From IMG/VR virus record IMGVR_UViG_3300042472_000045, positions 1-22,191 of that record: a stretch of 22,191 nucleotides of DNA; one strand, given 5' to 3'. Origin of the DNA: a virus. The notes beneath the pieces were generated by a model. It had not been told where the DNA came from and ran no database searches. It saw nothing but the letters and a program-made list of their open reading frames with translations. How positions within the stretch are numbered: position 1 is the first letter of the stretch; each line of letters starts with the position of its first letter. Positions 2,190 through 8,280 of the stretch are shown here, piece after piece. Made by a program: the position numbers and the translations under genes.

Positions 2190-2761
2190 GTGAAATACTA
2201 AGAATTGATACTAGTGCTGGTGTAACAAAAGCAACAGACACTATTGAAGACCTGCCTTTATATAATGATAATCATCCTATGTTAAAGGCTGTTATTCCAG
2301 AATATAGAATACAGTTGCCTAACCCATTGATGACCAAATTGGTTAAAAGGTTGAAACAAACAAAACTAAAATATGGCGGCATTGGCCTTTCTGCAAACCA
2401 ATGTGGTGTTATGGAAAGAGTATTCGTTATTGGGTATGAAGAAACTAATATGGTTTGTATCAACCCTAAAATCATTGATGCTTCGGCAGACTTGATTAAA
2501 GACAATGAAGGTTGCCTCTCTTTCCCTGGTTTATATGTTAAGATATCAAGGCCTAGTTGGTTGGAAGTAGAGTACGTTACTGAAAATGGCGAACTAATAC
2601 GACAAAGAATTGAAGGTCTGACTGCAAGATGTTTTGCACATGAATTGGATCATATGAATGGTACTAAGTTTACCGAACATGTTGGTCCAGTTGCACTCAG
2701 ACTGGCTAAAGATAAACAAGAAAAACGCATTAAGAAACATGTGCGAAATAGAAAGAAATAA
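2186..2761 (+). CDS. def: Peptide deformylase
   Basis: Peptide deformylase removes the N-formyl group from nascent proteins. All three family motifs are visible: motif 1 GGIGLSANQ (64-72), motif 2 EGCLS (108-112, Cys110 a metal ligand) and motif 3 HELDH (152-156, two His ligands plus catalytic Glu153). The 191 residues include an N-terminal extension of about 30 residues and a basic C-terminal tail (KQEKRIKKHVRNRKK). Bacterial enzymes are usually about 170 residues, and many phage versions are shorter. Deformylases are well known in marine T4-like phages, including cyanophages. The gene is coupled on both sides: ATGA overlap with gp46, and its TAA shares an A with the next ATG. A Shine-Dalgarno AGGA precedes the start. 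Unlike the core genes around it, it is not part of the T4 replication machinery. Confidence 0.95.
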   Translation: MSEILRIDTSAGVTKATDTIEDLPLYNDNHPMLKAVIPEYRIQLPNPLMTKLVKRLKQTKLKYGGIGLSANQCGVMERVFVIGYEETNMVCINPKIIDASADLIKDNEGCLSFPGLYVKISRPSWLEVEYVTENGELIRQRIEGLTARCFAHELDHMNGTKFTEHVGPVALRLAKDKQEKRIKKHVRNRKK

Positions 2762-4038
2762 TGGCATACGGATTTGACCCAAAAGATGATGTAGATACGC
2801 AATGGACAAAATGGCATGCAGACTTTAAAGAGCCTGCTGTTTTGACTGATGAGACTTTACGTGAGAAAATCATTAGTGACCTTACATTTGTATCAAAGAT
2901 GGATGTCAAAGAATATACATTATACCAAAAATGGTGTGAAGTGCAAGACAGATATCCTACAATGACTGTTAATGATTTGTGGGAAGGTGAGAAGGTTGTA
3001 TTACAGAGTGATGTTCAACGTGATGCTATTGATGACATTAAGAACAACTTTTGGATTCCAGAAACACTTGAAGATTATCTGAAACTTGAACCTGAAATGA
3101 TTTACACAAACAAAGGTGAGAACTTGCCTGAATTGTGGAATTGTATTCGCACCTTTTCTTCTACAATGAAGAACAACTCTAACATTGGCCGCAATCTAAA
3201 CTTCATCATTCGTGATAAGGTAACAAAGAAGTATCTTGGTGTTATTTGTATTTCATCAGACTTTCTTGATTTGACACCAAGAGATAATCACATTGGTTGG
3301 CCAAGAGAACTTAAAACACAAGGCGGTATGATTAACCATACTGCAATTGGTTCTACAATTGTTCCATTGCAGCCACTTGGTTTTAATTATGTTGGTGGTA
3401 AATTACTGGCACTTCTATGTCTTGCCGATCCTGTACAAGAATTGTGGAAGAAATTATATGGCGACACATTAGTTTCTGTAACTACAACTTCATTGTATGG
3501 TAGAACTAAGGCTGATGGACTTTCTCAGTATGATGGTCTAGACCACTGGCAGAAAATGGGATTTACGGCAGGTTCGGTATCATTTGAACCAGAAAAAGAA
3601 ACACGATATGATATTCGTGATTGGTTGAAAACAAAACATACACGTAAATACTTTGAATGGTATGTTGCAAAGAAGCCAAGCGGACAACCACATAAGCGTG
3701 ACCATAAGAATCGTTCACTTCAGTTTGTTTATTCTAAATTGAATATTCCTAAAGAGTTGATTCGTACAGACCATGCTCGAGGCATTTATTGGTCGCCACT
3801 ATACGATAACTCTATTGATTACCTTAATAAGAAAATTGGTGATGATGACTTGGTTAAATCATTTGATACAAGCGTTGAAGCCTTAGTTGATATTTGGAGA
3901 ACTAAACATGCCAAACCACGTATCAAACAATTGGCCAAAAAAGGCCGTAACAATAACGAAACCTTGTTCTATGACGACCTCTGTTATCTAACATGGGAAC
4001 AGGCAAAAGAGAAGTATCTTTGCCAAGTTGGTCGTTAA
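2761..4038 (+). CDS. DUF4338/DruA-like protein, possibly a Mom/GNAT-type enzyme (paralogue 1)
   Basis: This 425-residue protein has no assigned function that I can state firmly. A central block resembles the DUF4338 family (DruA of Druantia defence systems): KKYLGVICISSDFLDL, then PRDNHIGW, then PLQPLGFNYVGGKLLA (202-217), then TTTSLYG (241-247) and LSQYDGLDHWQKMGF. The same ordered blocks occur in the protein at 20542-21657, so the two are paralogues. The order (strand with LG, a GG loop before a helix, a strand ending in TTS, then a W/F-containing segment) also recalls Mom-type N-acetyltransferase-fold DNA-modifying proteins; this is inference. The N-terminal third and the basic C-terminal part (KPRIKQLAKKGR) are not shared with the paralogue. 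The gene is translationally linked to deformylase. Only a weak purine-rich stretch, not a good Shine-Dalgarno, precedes the ATG. Confidence 0.6.
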   Translation: MAYGFDPKDDVDTQWTKWHADFKEPAVLTDETLREKIISDLTFVSKMDVKEYTLYQKWCEVQDRYPTMTVNDLWEGEKVVLQSDVQRDAIDDIKNNFWIPETLEDYLKLEPEMIYTNKGENLPELWNCIRTFSSTMKNNSNIGRNLNFIIRDKVTKKYLGVICISSDFLDLTPRDNHIGWPRELKTQGGMINHTAIGSTIVPLQPLGFNYVGGKLLALLCLADPVQELWKKLYGDTLVSVTTTSLYGRTKADGLSQYDGLDHWQKMGFTAGSVSFEPEKETRYDIRDWLKTKHTRKYFEWYVAKKPSGQPHKRDHKNRSLQFVYSKLNIPKELIRTDHARGIYWSPLYDNSIDYLNKKIGDDDLVKSFDTSVEALVDIWRTKHAKPRIKQLAKKGRNNNETLFYDDLCYLTWEQAKEKYLCQVGR

Positions 4039-4043
4039 AACGC

Positions 4044-4072
4044 TTGACAAACAGCCTATATAATTATATAAT
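4044..4072 (+). promoter_or_regulatory. Consensus sigma70 promoter P1
   Basis: A perfect -35 TTGACA (4044-4049) and a perfect -10 TATAAT (4067-4072) are separated by exactly 17 bases. Transcription should begin near 4079. It lies just after the stop of the preceding gene and fires into a hairpin-rich, apparently non-coding stretch. A full-consensus promoter points to strong early expression by unmodified host RNA polymerase. Confidence 0.85.
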
Positions 4073-4078
4073 AGACAC

Positions 4079-4191
4079 AAATGCGGAGAGTCCGAGACAG
4101 CCCGTCCCAACGGGCAGACAGGTTTAACTCCTGTTATCCGCTCCATTCCTAAGTCCCATGCGACTTCCCAACTGTTGTTTTTACGCAACAG
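4079..4191 (+). ncRNA. Candidate small structured RNA with a tRNA-like half
   Basis: The 170 bases between P1 and the next gene contain no credible ORF but several consecutive stems. GCGGA (4083-4087) can pair with TCCGC (4137-4141). GCCCGT (4100-4105) pairs perfectly with ACGGGC (4110-4115). ACAGG (4118-4122) pairs with CCTGT (4130-4134) around a 7-base loop TTTAACT, resembling a tRNA T-arm. AAGTC pairs with GACTT (4151-4166). CTGTTG pairs with CAACAG (4172-4191). The segment after the first long stem ends TCCA (4142-4145), like a discriminator plus CCA. However, there is no room for a D-arm and the middle loop is not a normal anticodon loop, so a conventional tRNA is unlikely. The predicted P1 start site is only a few bases upstream of the first stem. 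It could be a free small RNA or a leader read into the next gene. Confidence 0.4.
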
Positions 4192-4223
4192 GCTCTTGAC
4201 AAATCCTCCAGTTTTGATATAAT
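4172..4223 (+). promoter_or_regulatory. Composite sigma70 promoter P2 with upstream inverted repeat
   Basis: TTGACA (4196-4201) and TATAAT (4218-4223) are separated by 16 bases, placing the start site near 4230 and giving a short leader to the ATG at 4251 (AAGG as Shine-Dalgarno). Immediately upstream is the inverted repeat TGTTG (4173-4177), 8 bases, CAACAGG (4186-4192), ending 3 bases before the -35. The spacer contains CCTCCAGTTTTG. The same arrangement recurs at 6556-6607 in front of the next gene, which makes it likely that these are regulatory sites rather than chance. Confidence 0.8.
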
Positions 4224-4250
4224 GGTTAGATAAATTCAAAAAGGTTTTGC

Positions 4251-6554
4251 ATGACAGCATTTACAGTAGAACAAAAATCTCAGCTTGCCAAGTTGATGGC
4301 AACTGAGAACCTTACCATTCAACATTCAAAAATCCATACTGCCAAATTTGACCCAACTAAACGGATTCTTTATCTTCCTATGTGGAAAGATATGTCAAGT
4401 TTCATGTATGATTTGCTTGGCGGCCATGAGGTCGGTCATGCTCTTTATACTCCTGCGGATGGTTGGCATGATGTTGTTACCGATAAAAACAGAGGTAAGA
4501 ATTATAAAGCTTTCCTTAATGTGATTGAAGATGCTCGCATTGAGAAAAAAGTTATTCGTAAATATCCAGGCCTTAAATCATCATTCCGTAAAGCATATGC
4601 TGAATTAAGTGACCGTGATTTCTTTGGCATCCAACATCGTGACATTAACCATATGTCATTCATTGACCGATTGAATATCTATACCAAGAGCCAATACAGC
4701 GAAAACATTAGATTTTCTGTTGAAGAAATGCAAATGATTGGTGAAGTTCAAATGCTTGAAACATGGAATGATGTGCTTCGGGTAACTGAAAAGATTTATG
4801 GTTATTGTAAGAATGAACAATTTGAATTATCAATTGGTGATGATTTTGAATATGACGCTGAAGGCAATCCCTTAGATGAAGATGATACCAATTCCGATTA
4901 TGATTATGATACTGAATTGGATAATGGTGAATCTGGCGACAGCGAAGATTCGGATGAAACCTCAGATGAAACTACCGATGAAGAAACCGATGGTAACTCT
5001 GATGGTGAAGGTGACGATTCCGATTCTGATGATGACGGCAACAATGTGAATCGTGATAAAGATTCGCAAATGTCCAATTTCGATTCAGAAGATTTTGATC
5101 CAGAATGTGTAACTGACGATAACTACCGCAAAAACGAAGTGACATTGCTTGATGAAAAATGCAAGCCTTATGTGTACGCTAATATGCCTACACCTATTTT
5201 GTCTAAAATTATCACACCTGCAAAACGGGTTCAAGAGTTGTTGACATTAGATTTTGCAAATCAGGTTAAAGATGGTTATATAACAGATGAAAGAATCAAT
5301 GGTTTTGTACAAGAATTTCGTAATAGAAATGAACGTTACATTGCATTGCTTGCCAAAGAGTTTGAAATGCGTAAGGCTGCCAAATCATTCAGTAAGGCAA
5401 AGCAATCGGATACTGGTGATGTTGATGTTAACAAACTGGCTTCATACCGTTTTGATGACAATATCTTCCGTAAAATCATGCAAGTGCCAAAAGGCAAATC
5501 ACATGGTTTGATTCTGTTGCTTGATTATTCTGGTTCTATGTCAGATAACATGGCAGGTTCTATTGAACAAATCTTGGTTCTTTCCATGTTCTGCCGTAAA
5601 GTAAACATTCCATTCCATGTTTATGCATTCAGTAATGATTCTTCCACATGGTCAATTGATAATCCCAAGACTACTGCTGTACCACTTAGCGTTCTTGGAA
5701 ATCCTATGGAAGTTCGTCAATGTTTTATGTACCAATCTGGTGAATTAAAATTTGAAGCTATTTCATTGCGTGAATATTTAAATTCTAAAATGACAAATGC
5801 TGAATTTACCAAGGCCTTGCGTAACATGGTATTGTTGAAAAAGTCCTATGAAGGCGGTCGTTATGCTCGTGTTGTGCAAAGACCACATTCTGAAAGACTT
5901 TCAAATACTCCTTTGACAGAAGCTTTGGTTGCAACACAAGCAATTATGAAAAACTTTAAACGTAGCAACAATTTGGATATTACAAACTTGGTAATTATCC
6001 ATGACGGTGATGCTGACTCCACTAATTGTGTGGCAAATGATGAAGGTGGTTACAATTGGTTTCATCCATTGTATGAGAATGTTATCCTTCAAGATAACAA
6101 ATTAAAATACCAGAAGCTAGTTAAGTCTAACAACTTAAGCAATGAAATGTTTGTTTCGGTTGCTGAGTGGTTTACCGCTACAACCAACTCTAAGATTTTT
6201 GGTTTCTTTATTGTTCCTCCTCATCGTTCAAAGGGCATCATTAGACATTACTACCATAATGAAAATAGATTACCTCTATACACTAAGCGTTCTGATGCTA
6301 ACATAGATGCTGAGTTGATTAAACAACTGAAGCGTAAATTGGATACTCAGAAGTTTTTACATTCATTCAATCCTGGTTATGATTCGTTCTTCCTAATTTC
6401 TGGTGGAAATGATTTAATGACCAATGATGGTGAAATTGAGGTTGATGGTAAACTTACAGCATCTAAGCTCAAGAATGCTTTTATGAAGTTCAATAAAGGC
6501 AAACAGATTAACCGAGTGTTAGTCTCCAAGTTCATTCAAGGCATTGCTGCCTGA
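4251..6554 (+). CDS. Metallopeptidase-like/VWA domain protein (CobT- or DUF2201-like), partner of the AAA+ ATPase
   Basis: This 767-residue protein has three visible parts. The N-terminal part contains HEVGHALY (HExxH at 59-63) followed by NVIEDARIE (90-98), which gives a gluzincin-like set of zinc ligands. About residues 203-275 form a very acidic, low-complexity D/E/S/T linker. The C-terminal half is a von Willebrand A domain with the metal-ion-dependent adhesion motif DYSGS (D425, S427, S429) after a hydrophobic strand, and a later strand containing HDGD. This architecture resembles cobaltochelatase subunit CobT and the DUF2201 metallopeptidase-VWA family, both of which work with MoxR/CobS AAA+ ATPases; one lies next door. 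No CobN-type large chelatase subunit is in the window, so cobalt insertion is not supported here. A role as a AAA+-driven remodelling or proteolytic complex is inference. Confidence 0.8.
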   Translation: MTAFTVEQKSQLAKLMATENLTIQHSKIHTAKFDPTKRILYLPMWKDMSSFMYDLLGGHEVGHALYTPADGWHDVVTDKNRGKNYKAFLNVIEDARIEKKVIRKYPGLKSSFRKAYAELSDRDFFGIQHRDINHMSFIDRLNIYTKSQYSENIRFSVEEMQMIGEVQMLETWNDVLRVTEKIYGYCKNEQFELSIGDDFEYDAEGNPLDEDDTNSDYDYDTELDNGESGDSEDSDETSDETTDEETDGNSDGEGDDSDSDDDGNNVNRDKDSQMSNFDSEDFDPECVTDDNYRKNEVTLLDEKCKPYVYANMPTPILSKIITPAKRVQELLTLDFANQVKDGYITDERINGFVQEFRNRNERYIALLAKEFEMRKAAKSFSKAKQSDTGDVDVNKLASYRFDDNIFRKIMQVPKGKSHGLILLLDYSGSMSDNMAGSIEQILVLSMFCRKVNIPFHVYAFSNDSSTWSIDNPKTTAVPLSVLGNPMEVRQCFMYQSGELKFEAISLREYLNSKMTNAEFTKALRNMVLLKKSYEGGRYARVVQRPHSERLSNTPLTEALVATQAIMKNFKRSNNLDITNLVIIHDGDADSTNCVANDEGGYNWFHPLYENVILQDNKLKYQKLVKSNNLSNEMFVSVAEWFTATTNSKIFGFFIVPPHRSKGIIRHYYHNENRLPLYTKRSDANIDAELIKQLKRKLDTQKFLHSFNPGYDSFFLISGGNDLMTNDGEIEVDGKLTASKLKNAFMKFNKGKQINRVLVSKFIQGIAA

Positions 6555-6555
6555 G

Positions 6556-6607
6556 TGTTGTATTAATACAACAGGGTGGTTGACAATACCTCCTGTTGTG
6601 TTATAAT
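6556..6607 (+). promoter_or_regulatory. Composite sigma70 promoter P3 with palindrome and operator-like dyad
   Basis: TTGACA (6580-6585) and TATAAT (6602-6607) have a 16-base spacer. Upstream is an 18-base perfect palindrome TGTTGTATTAATACAACA (6556-6573), three bases after the preceding stop codon. A second dyad, ACAACAGG (6568-6575) with CCTGTTGT (6592-6599), brackets the -35 box, as an operator would. Elements shared with P2 are TGTTG-N8-CAACAGG just upstream of -35 and CCTCC-N-GTT-N-TG in the spacer. Transcription should start near 6614. On read-through RNA the palindrome could also fold, but no U-tract follows it. Confidence 0.82.
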
Positions 6608-6633: not shown

Positions 6634-7800
6634 ATGACAGCTCGTACTGAAATCCGTGAAAAGTTTATGTCCACTCTGCAAGCACTTGGCAAAGCCGAAG
6701 TGACTAAAGCAGAAATCAAATCCATTTGTGCAACTCTTGGCATTTCTGGTGCTCAATGGTTTACCAAAGAAGAATCGAACCGTGTTGGTCGTGGTAAATA
6801 CCTTGTACCTAATCCCGCATTAATATCAATGCAAGCCAATGTTGTGCCTATGAAAAAACCAGTTGAACAATCAAATCATAGAATTGTTAATGTAGTTACT
6901 GACCTTGATACTACAAACTTAATTCCAACACCATATCGCAATTATGTCCCATTCGGTGACTTTGACGATATTGTTTCAATCGTGAAATCAAATCGATTCT
7001 TTCCAGTATTCATTACTGGTCATTCAGGTAATGGTAAAACAATGTCTATTGAACAGGCCTGTGCAAAGGCTCGCCGTAAATTCATTTGCGTATCAATGAC
7101 ACCTGAAACTGATGAAGGTGATTTGCTTGGTAACTATGTGTTGATTGATGGTAATATGGAATGGCGTGATGGTCCTGTAACAACAGCGGCTCGTCAAGGC
7201 GCTGTGTTATGTATTGATGAAATCGATTATGGTGCTCAGAACCTTTCCTCTTTGCAACGTGTACTTGAAGGCAAACCTTTCATGTTGAAAAAGAAAGGTG
7301 AATTGATTACACCTGCTGAAGGTTTCACCGTGTTTGCTACTGCAAATACTAAAGGTAAAGGTTCAGATGATGGTCGTTACATGTTCACCAATGTTTTGAA
7401 CGAAGCGTTCCTTGAGCGTTTCCCCAATACATACGAACAACAATGGCCACCAACTAATATTGAAAAGAAAATCATTAAGAAAGAATTGGTTTCTGTTGGT
7501 CGTGATGATGAAGACTTTGCCGACAAACTGGTAATGTGGGCAGATACCATTCGTAAAACATTCTTGGATGGTGGTTGTGATGAAGTGATTTCCACTCGCC
7601 GTTTGGTACACATTGTGAATACATTTGGTATTCATGGTGATAAAATGAAATCTATTGGCTTGTGCTTAAACCGTTTTGATGATGACACAAAGGCAAGTTT
7701 TGTTGATTTGTATACCAAGATTGATGCAGGTATTAATCCTGATGCGCCACCTGTTATTGTGCCTGAAACCACACAACAATCGGAAGAAATACCATTCTAA
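6634..7800 (+). CDS. cobS: MoxR/CobS-type AAA+ ATPase
   Basis: This 388-residue AAA+ ATPase is of the dynein/MoxR class, usually annotated in marine T4-like phages as CobS. Walker A GHSGNGKT is at 129-136, Walker B AVLCIDEID at 190-198 and sensor 1 VFATANT at 233-239. An arginine-bearing segment NEAFLERF follows, suitable as the inter-subunit finger. The N-terminal 60 residues look helix-turn-helix-like (TKAEIKSICATLGISGAQW), a region often responsible for partner binding. It is adjacent to the VWA/metallopeptidase gene and has its own copy of the same composite promoter, so the two probably act together. The last residues, SEEIPF, resemble the acidic tail of bacterial SSB. The symbol reflects the family name; a role in cobalamin synthesis is not demonstrated. 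The start is preceded only by a weak AAAGA. Confidence 0.87.
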   Translation: MTARTEIREKFMSTLQALGKAEVTKAEIKSICATLGISGAQWFTKEESNRVGRGKYLVPNPALISMQANVVPMKKPVEQSNHRIVNVVTDLDTTNLIPTPYRNYVPFGDFDDIVSIVKSNRFFPVFITGHSGNGKTMSIEQACAKARRKFICVSMTPETDEGDLLGNYVLIDGNMEWRDGPVTTAARQGAVLCIDEIDYGAQNLSSLQRVLEGKPFMLKKKGELITPAEGFTVFATANTKGKGSDDGRYMFTNVLNEAFLERFPNTYEQQWPPTNIEKKIIKKELVSVGRDDEDFADKLVMWADTIRKTFLDGGCDEVISTRRLVHIVNTFGIHGDKMKSIGLCLNRFDDDTKASFVDLYTKIDAGINPDAPPVIVPETTQQSEEIPF

Positions 7801-7837: not shown

Positions 7838-7866
7838 TTGACACACTCACTTAAACGTGTTATAAT
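7838..7866 (+). promoter_or_regulatory. Consensus sigma70 promoter P4
   Basis: Perfect TTGACA (7838-7843) and TATAAT (7861-7866) boxes lie 17 bases apart, predicting a start near 7873. It drives a leader of about 70 bases and the small DNA-binding-type gene at 7945. Unlike P2 and P3 it lacks the CAACAGG and CCTCC elements. Confidence 0.85.
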
Positions 7867-7875
7867 ATATCATAT

Positions 7876-7929
7876 TTTGAGAGAATGAATCTCCTCTCAA
7901 ATACTTCCCCTCAATTGAGATTCGTTTTT
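7876..7929 (+). promoter_or_regulatory. Attenuator-like leader with two competing hairpins
   Basis: TTTGAGAG (7876-7883) pairs with CTCTCAAA (7894-7901). Its loop contains GAATCTC (7887-7893), which can instead pair with GAGATTC (7917-7923). That second hairpin is followed by GTTTTTATT, a terminator-like U-tract. The two pairings interleave and so would compete in simple secondary structure. A 10-base palindrome CTCAATTGAG (7910-7919) overlaps the second hairpin and repeats the TTGAGA word of the first, so a DNA operator is an alternative reading. The layout resembles a terminator/antiterminator switch ahead of the ATG at 7945. Confidence 0.5.
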
Positions 7930-7944
7930 ATTATGGAGACTACT

Positions 7945-8217
7945 ATGTCCGCTAAATCTAAAGTCCTCGCCTATCTTTCCAAGACTGGTTCTTACAACAC
8001 ATTGACACCTACCAAGATGCAATCTGTTTTCGGTGTTGCAAATCCTTCCGCAACCATCAATGAATTGCGTAACGAAGGCTATGCAATCTACTTGAACAGC
8101 CGTGTTACACCATCTGGTGACAAGGTTTCGTTCTATCGTTTGGGCACACCAACTAAACGTGTAGTTGCTGCTGGCATCGCCGCAATTCGTTCACAAGGAA
8201 CACGTGCTTTTGCCTAA
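7945..8217 (+). CDS. Small winged-helix/helix-turn-helix-type protein
   Basis: I choose the ATG at 7945 (90 residues) because GGAG lies 7 bases upstream of it and the region before it is a structured leader; an in-frame ATG at 7885 would add 20 leader-encoded residues of unlikely composition. The protein starts MSAKSKVLAYLSKTGSYN and continues through TPTKMQSVFGVANPSATINELRNEGYAIYLNS. This is the pattern of a helix-turn-helix followed by a wing: a helix, a turn at the F-G-V-A-N-P segment, a recognition helix, then strands (SFYRLGTPT). The tail is basic and alanine-rich. Similar small proteins occur in marine T4-like phages. It probably binds nucleic acid, with targets unknown. It is a monocistronic unit between promoter P4 and the terminator at 8238, which suggests strong, independent expression and possible self-regulation. 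Confidence 0.7.
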   Translation: MSAKSKVLAYLSKTGSYNTLTPTKMQSVFGVANPSATINELRNEGYAIYLNSRVTPSGDKVSFYRLGTPTKRVVAAGIAAIRSQGTRAFA

Positions 8218-8237: not shown

Positions 8238-8280
8238 AGAGGAGGGATATATAATAGTATCCCTCCTCTTTTTTATTTTA
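8238..8280 (+). terminator. Strong Rho-independent terminator
   Basis: AGAGGAGGGATA (8238-8249) pairs perfectly over 12 bases with TATCCCTCCTCT (8258-8269) around an 8-base loop, followed by TTTTTATTTTA. It is the clearest intrinsic terminator in the window and ends the small regulator transcript. Confidence 0.93.

Follow-up and report, generated by a model that had tools for sequence, protein, structure and literature searches.

A palindrome upstream of consensus sigma70 promoters looks like a widespread activator-type site in mostly uncultured phages

Why should two adjacent phage genes, one encoding a metallopeptidase-VWA protein and the other an AAA+ ATPase, each be preceded by a promoter of the same composite design? 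The question is raised by a 22-kb fragment of viral DNA, IMGVR_UViG_3300042472_000045 (22,191 nucleotides, GC 0.37), the whole of which was analysed and is referred to here as the window. Its genes are those of a T4-like phage and include a DNA polymerase, sliding clamp, clamp loader, RegA, UvsX, a DnaB-type helicase and SbcC/D homologues; the top annotated-phage matches over the window are the pelagimyophages Mosig and HTVC008M, in which the gene order around the two promoters is identical. A preliminary description explained the likeness by a dedicated operator or activator site, co-regulating two genes that probably act as one complex. Sequence comparisons bear out a regulatory type of site, and make co-regulation plausible, but the element looks like a widespread activator-type site of mostly uncultured phages and not like a private switch for the pair.

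Both promoters are confirmed at the positions first reported for them (4172-4223 and 6556-6607). The first precedes a CobT-like metallopeptidase-VWA protein of 767 aa (4251-6554, forward strand; phrog_459 peptidase, E 3.7e-172) and reads TGTTGTTTTTACGCAACAGG-CTC-TTGACA-N16-TATAAT. It consists of a palindromic site, TGTTGTTTTTACGCAACA, at 4173-4190 and a forward-strand sigma70-type promoter at 4196-4223, with its -35 box at 4196-4201 and -10 box at 4218-4223. The second, TGTTGTATTAATACAACAGG-GTGG-TTGACA-N16-TATAAT, precedes a CobS-like AAA+ ATPase of 388 aa (6634-7800, forward strand; AAA_5, E 2.8e-20; phrog_249, E 7.1e-99). Here a perfect 18-bp palindrome, TGTTGTATTAATACAACA, occupies 6556-6573 and the promoter, on the same strand, 6580-6607 (-35 at 6580-6585, -10 at 6602-6607). 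The element is built around a palindrome of 18 bp, TGTTGY-N6-RCAACA, which is separated from the perfect TTGACA/TATAAT promoter downstream by 5-6 bp. As had been described, the spacers AATCCTCCAGTTTTGA and ATACCTCCTGTTGTGT agree at 11 of 16 positions (counted by eye on the sequence), and a second dyad, ACAACAGG/CCTGTTGT, flanks the -35 box of copy 2.

The composite pattern occurs exactly twice in the window, and the reversed pattern not at all. A promoter scan identifies four promoters that match the consensus at all 12 positions, at 4044, 4196, 6580 and 7838, and the palindrome is present only at those at 4196 and 6580. With 18 fixed bases, the exact composite is expected by our estimate about 1e-6 times per 22 kb, and the two copies are therefore not a product of chance.

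Two other features lie just upstream of the pair. The perfect promoter at 4044-4072 is followed by a tRNA-like sequence roughly 65 bases long (GCGGAGAGTCCGAGAC...TTATCCGCTCCA) and then by the palindrome of the peptidase gene (region 4044-4145); this sequence has no ARAGORN or Rfam match, and a similar one is kept in relatives. Positions 2761-4038 encode a DruA (Druantia) domain protein (PF14236, E 2.5e-17), here in a T4-like phage and beside a peptide deformylase; this neighbourhood recurs in Mosig, where the protein is a DUF4338 protein.

Conservation was assessed in relatives chosen by their AAA+ protein alone, whose upstream DNA was then read. Of 35 distinct regions upstream of the metallopeptidase-VWA gene, with proteins 48-100% identical, 32 have the exact palindrome arms; at the AAA+ gene the palindrome is kept in 29 of 38. 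The preliminary description had envisaged that the element might not be kept where the genes are; it is kept at both genes across a large clade, and also stands at the remote homologues in record G002. In one subclade the AAA+ gene has neither palindrome nor -35 box, and the palindrome of the peptidase gene is retained where readable. At the AAA+ gene of one relative, IMGVR_UViG_3300008107_004055, palindrome and -35 are both missing and the -10 region is intact, which points either to a deletion in nature or to faulty assembly. HTVC008M and Mosig have promoter-like boxes of their own at both genes, and the exact palindrome is found nowhere in either genome.

Not all of the shared architecture is conserved in this way. 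The palindrome and its consensus promoter persist in relatives, but the CCTCC-N-GTT-N-TG spacer occurs in only four of the 35 upstream regions of the metallopeptidase-VWA gene and four of the 38 of the AAA+ gene. This spacer, the GG that follows the palindrome and the second dyad are largely limited to near relatives, and we have rejected a functional role for either the spacer motif or the second dyad because neither is conserved. Similar spacers might be expected of recently duplicated promoters, and the likeness could on that basis be ascribed to duplication, or to chance, with no function attached. The arms of the palindrome are nevertheless retained while spacers and flanks turn over, and the reversed control is near zero, making this the most improbable of the explanations considered.

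The palindrome is also found well beyond the gene pair. A 157-kb contig from a close relative with identical sites (G001) holds eight exact palindromes and no reversed motif; the corresponding counts are 11 and 0 in G002, and 13 and 1 in G006, where several palindromes stand in tandem, 25 bp apart. At L126 (2242-2309) and L064 (4723-4765 and 7556-7598; record G006) two or three palindromes follow one another before a single promoter at exactly this spacing. When contigs were scanned for TTGACA-N16/17-TATAAT with the palindrome 8-38 bp upstream, at least 120 contig stretches of GC 0.31-0.55 matched, some belonging to contigs as long as 280 and 345 kb; many of the sampled phages are related, so that palindrome counts are partly non-independent, and both of our large scans demanded a consensus promoter, so that promoters of other quality are under-sampled. 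One family of hits from our first scan, TACCCTTGTTGGCAAGTTCCAACAGGGATTTGACATC, was excluded although it recurs in many contigs; it has TGTTGG/CCAACA arms, no -10 box and coding-like sequence. The genes downstream of the palindromes belong to dozens of families, mostly small phage proteins without assigned function; one is a GP88-like protein.

This distribution bears directly on the idea that the site serves the metallopeptidase-VWA and AAA+ genes exclusively. Occurrence at many unrelated genes had been named at the outset as grounds for abandoning it, and the wider search of phages found just that, in the same phage and in others. Despite retention of the site at both genes over a large clade, and its presence at another AAA+/VWA pair, exclusive dedication is therefore refuted. 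The notion of a shared complex fares better. In a phage of another type (L271, IMGVR_UViG_3300021138_000349), a phrog_1297 AAA+ ATPase and a DUF2201 metallopeptidase-VWA protein, a pair unrelated to that in the window, each have their own palindrome promoter, which speaks for that notion, and further contigs carry the palindrome at either an AAA+ or a VWA gene. AAA+/VWA pairs thus appear to be recurrent members of the regulon, and from clade-wide retention, G002 and this independent pair, co-regulation of the two genes is a fair inference. The same L271 locus has a tRNA-like sequence directly upstream of the VWA gene's palindrome, and the PHROGs label of its VWA family, 'HNH endonuclease', conflicts with Pfam.

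The position of the palindrome relative to the promoter offers a guide to its function. Sites were collected irrespective of position, giving 165 with the palindrome against one with the reversed motif; most palindrome centres are between -46 and -89 relative to the predicted start, and very few fall on the core promoter. Contigs chosen by a winged-HTH protein discussed below contain 48 distinct sites, of which 45 come with a consensus promoter; the palindrome centre is almost always upstream of that promoter, in most cases between -50 and -84. When 174 deduplicated promoters are pooled, the spacing between palindrome and -35 box has a best period of 10.5 bp. The 5-7 bp class, which our first pattern selected, inflates the Rayleigh value of 2e-9; with offsets of at least 8 bp alone a jitter test gives p = 0.007, and without the selected class the phasing statistic is modest. 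Sites that are both upstream of the core promoter and helix-phased follow the class I-like arrangement of activator sites, a pattern expected of a dimer that contacts RNA polymerase.

On these grounds we consider it reasonably probable that TGTTGY-N6-RCAACA is the site of a dimeric transcription activator acting upstream of sigma70 promoters. We infer that a sequence-specific regulator would bind the palindrome as a dimer, at a regulon spread over the phage genome that includes the CobT-like and CobS-like genes. The dimer would lie upstream of the sigma70 promoter, which is intact, and always on the same side of the helix. There it would most likely touch RNA polymerase, for example its alpha C-terminal domain, and so boost transcription of its target genes, which probably belong to the early or middle class. 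What speaks most strongly against simple activation is that the -35 and -10 boxes match the consensus. Such promoters usually need no help, and they keep in play a repressor of strong early promoters, acting by retention of the polymerase at the promoter or by looping between sites; the tandem sites 25 bp apart in G006 also favour this rival. The sites are almost never on the core promoter or start, where most repressor operators lie, and helical phasing across several turns is a better fit to polymerase contact. Repression is on balance unlikely, though it deserves to be kept as a rival.

What protein might act as the predicted activator? The best candidate encoded by the phage is a winged-HTH (wHTH) protein at 7945-8217 (forward strand), the HTH-type protein already suspected in the preliminary description. 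Its gene directly follows that of the AAA+ ATPase and is itself followed immediately, at 8238-8269, by a strong intrinsic-terminator-like hairpin (13 pairs and a T run). The protein scores 20.9 bits against HTH_39, just under the cut-off of 21.3, and 32 of 40 family members match that profile. Ten palindrome-bearing records of 120 kb or more, including those of 280 and 345 kb, were searched with the wHTH profile (phrog_4973/HTH_39), and every one gave a match; two cyanophages that lack the palindrome gave none. The family was not found in several palindrome-bearing records of 20-87 kb, an absence that is uninformative since none is circular by comparison of contig ends. Single-sequence searches recover it from very few of 50,697 cultured phage records, but it is common in environmental contigs, so that cultured phages give no base rate for large aquatic ones.

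Other observations weaken a simple correspondence between protein and site. HTVC008M, Mosig and DLP_6 have the wHTH family and lack the exact palindrome, and six whole jumbo-type records chosen by the wHTH protein alone have 0-3 palindromes each. Contigs sorted by wHTH type differ in how densely palindromes occur around the gene, with 9.4 and 10.6 per 100 kb compared with only 0.5-1.3 in the marine HTVC008M type; the difference is confounded with habitat and lineage. A recognition-helix signature, N-x-x-A, fails as a marker of the palindrome, which also accompanies a D-x-x-S lineage and an S-x-x-A protein; one HTVC008M-type record, G448, has two palindromes, against the signature. Assignment of the regulator to this wHTH protein is accordingly tentative. 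Another phage protein has an equal claim, and a host regulator is a somewhat doubtful third choice.

The wHTH gene has a promoter at 7838-7866, which lacks the palindrome, and a start codon (ATG) at 7945. Between them the mRNA leader (7868-7947) can be folded by hand into an H-type pseudoknot, pairing 7876-7883 with 7894-7901 and 7887-7893 with 7917-7923, just 5' of the GGAG at 7935 and the ATG. Across 32 aligned leaders from relatives, 98.5% of cells are paired and 11 of 15 pairs have changed on both sides; none of 500 shuffles reaches the observed values, and sliding the alignment by one column reduces pairing to 40-46%. Rfam has no match to the leader at the gathering threshold in the window, and four relatives likewise give none, even when E values as high as 0.5 are admitted. 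The pseudoknot suggests translational control of the wHTH protein, possibly as a riboswitch or a protein-controlled leader. A comprehensive model, which we hold as no better than conjectural, would make the phrog_4973-type wHTH protein a master activator that reads TGTTGY-N6-RCAACA at a promoter class common to unrelated phages, from T4-like to jumbo, driving AAA+/VWA pairs and small takeover-type genes, with its own synthesis set by the leader pseudoknot.

The palindrome could instead be the site of a global regulator of the host, exploited by many phages of one host group. The same site does occur in phage contigs very different in size and GC, and NtcA boxes in cyanophages, at 1-16 per T4-like genome, provide a precedent (PMC3037559). 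In 399 Pseudomonadota genomes, however, the palindrome with TTGACA is near chance, with a match in 14 genomes, and the palindromes of one Alphaproteobacteria MAG are confined to a phage-like contig within it. A proteobacterial host regulon is rejected for want of clear enrichment in the 399 genomes; the wide sampling was of Pseudomonadota, and a host regulator in general is rather unlikely. BLAST with two other contigs returned no close cultured phage with a known host.

Gene timing in uncultured T4-like and jumbo phages is poorly understood, and a 2020 survey of pelagimyophages attempted the prediction of middle and late promoters and failed (PMC7029224). An activator-type site common to unrelated phages would offer a direct handle, marking a regulon in contigs of unassigned host and pointing to co-expressed genes such as those of AAA+/VWA complexes, and it comes with a testable regulator candidate that has a structured leader. 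The site may be new: we found no published description of it in a search that took in a minority of subscription papers.

Comparison with known systems shows partial likenesses only. For the candidate regulator AlphaFold (36 sequences) predicts a winged helix and, C-terminal to it, a further helix (pLDDT 93.7), a fold resembling that of the PadR, MarR and HxlR families. Its structural matches, which include PadR, SlyA and HxlR, are weak, none having E ≤0.001, and it has no convincing sequence relative in the PDB. T4 middle promoters, read by MotA, are likewise a promoter class of a T4-like phage that is marked by an extra box. The MotA box, however, replaces the -35, whereas both promoters here have a perfect TTGACA with the palindrome upstream of it.

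Ogr sites centre near -55. The activator site of the P2/P4 Ogr-Delta late promoters, TGT-N12-ACA (PMC3931495), is also an upstream dyad in a phage, and TGTTG-N8-CAACA fits it at both copies. The palindromes described here differ in standing before a consensus -35 at several phased distances, and in serving genes other than late morphogenesis operons. Ogr/Delta was rejected as the regulator, as no homologue of the zinc-finger activator (PF04606) was found in 22 records, several of them fragments, the control matching in E. coli only.

The NtcA boxes of T4-like cyanophages similarly form an upstream dyad of N8 spacing, with several copies per genome at diverse genes (PMC3037559). Their half-sites are GTA-N8-TAC and not TGTTG-N8-CAACA, and none of 18 palindrome-bearing records has a psbA-family gene, so that these phages are not cyanophage-like; a cyanophage using host NtcA was rejected on both counts. 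LexA operators (CTGT-N8-ACAG and variants) are palindromes recognised by a winged-HTH dimer (PMC8565304), with the same N8 spacing and other half-sites; CTGT and ACAG are 12 bases apart in copy 1, and copy 2 has no CTGT. LexA is moreover a repressor, whereas the sites described here avoid the core promoter.
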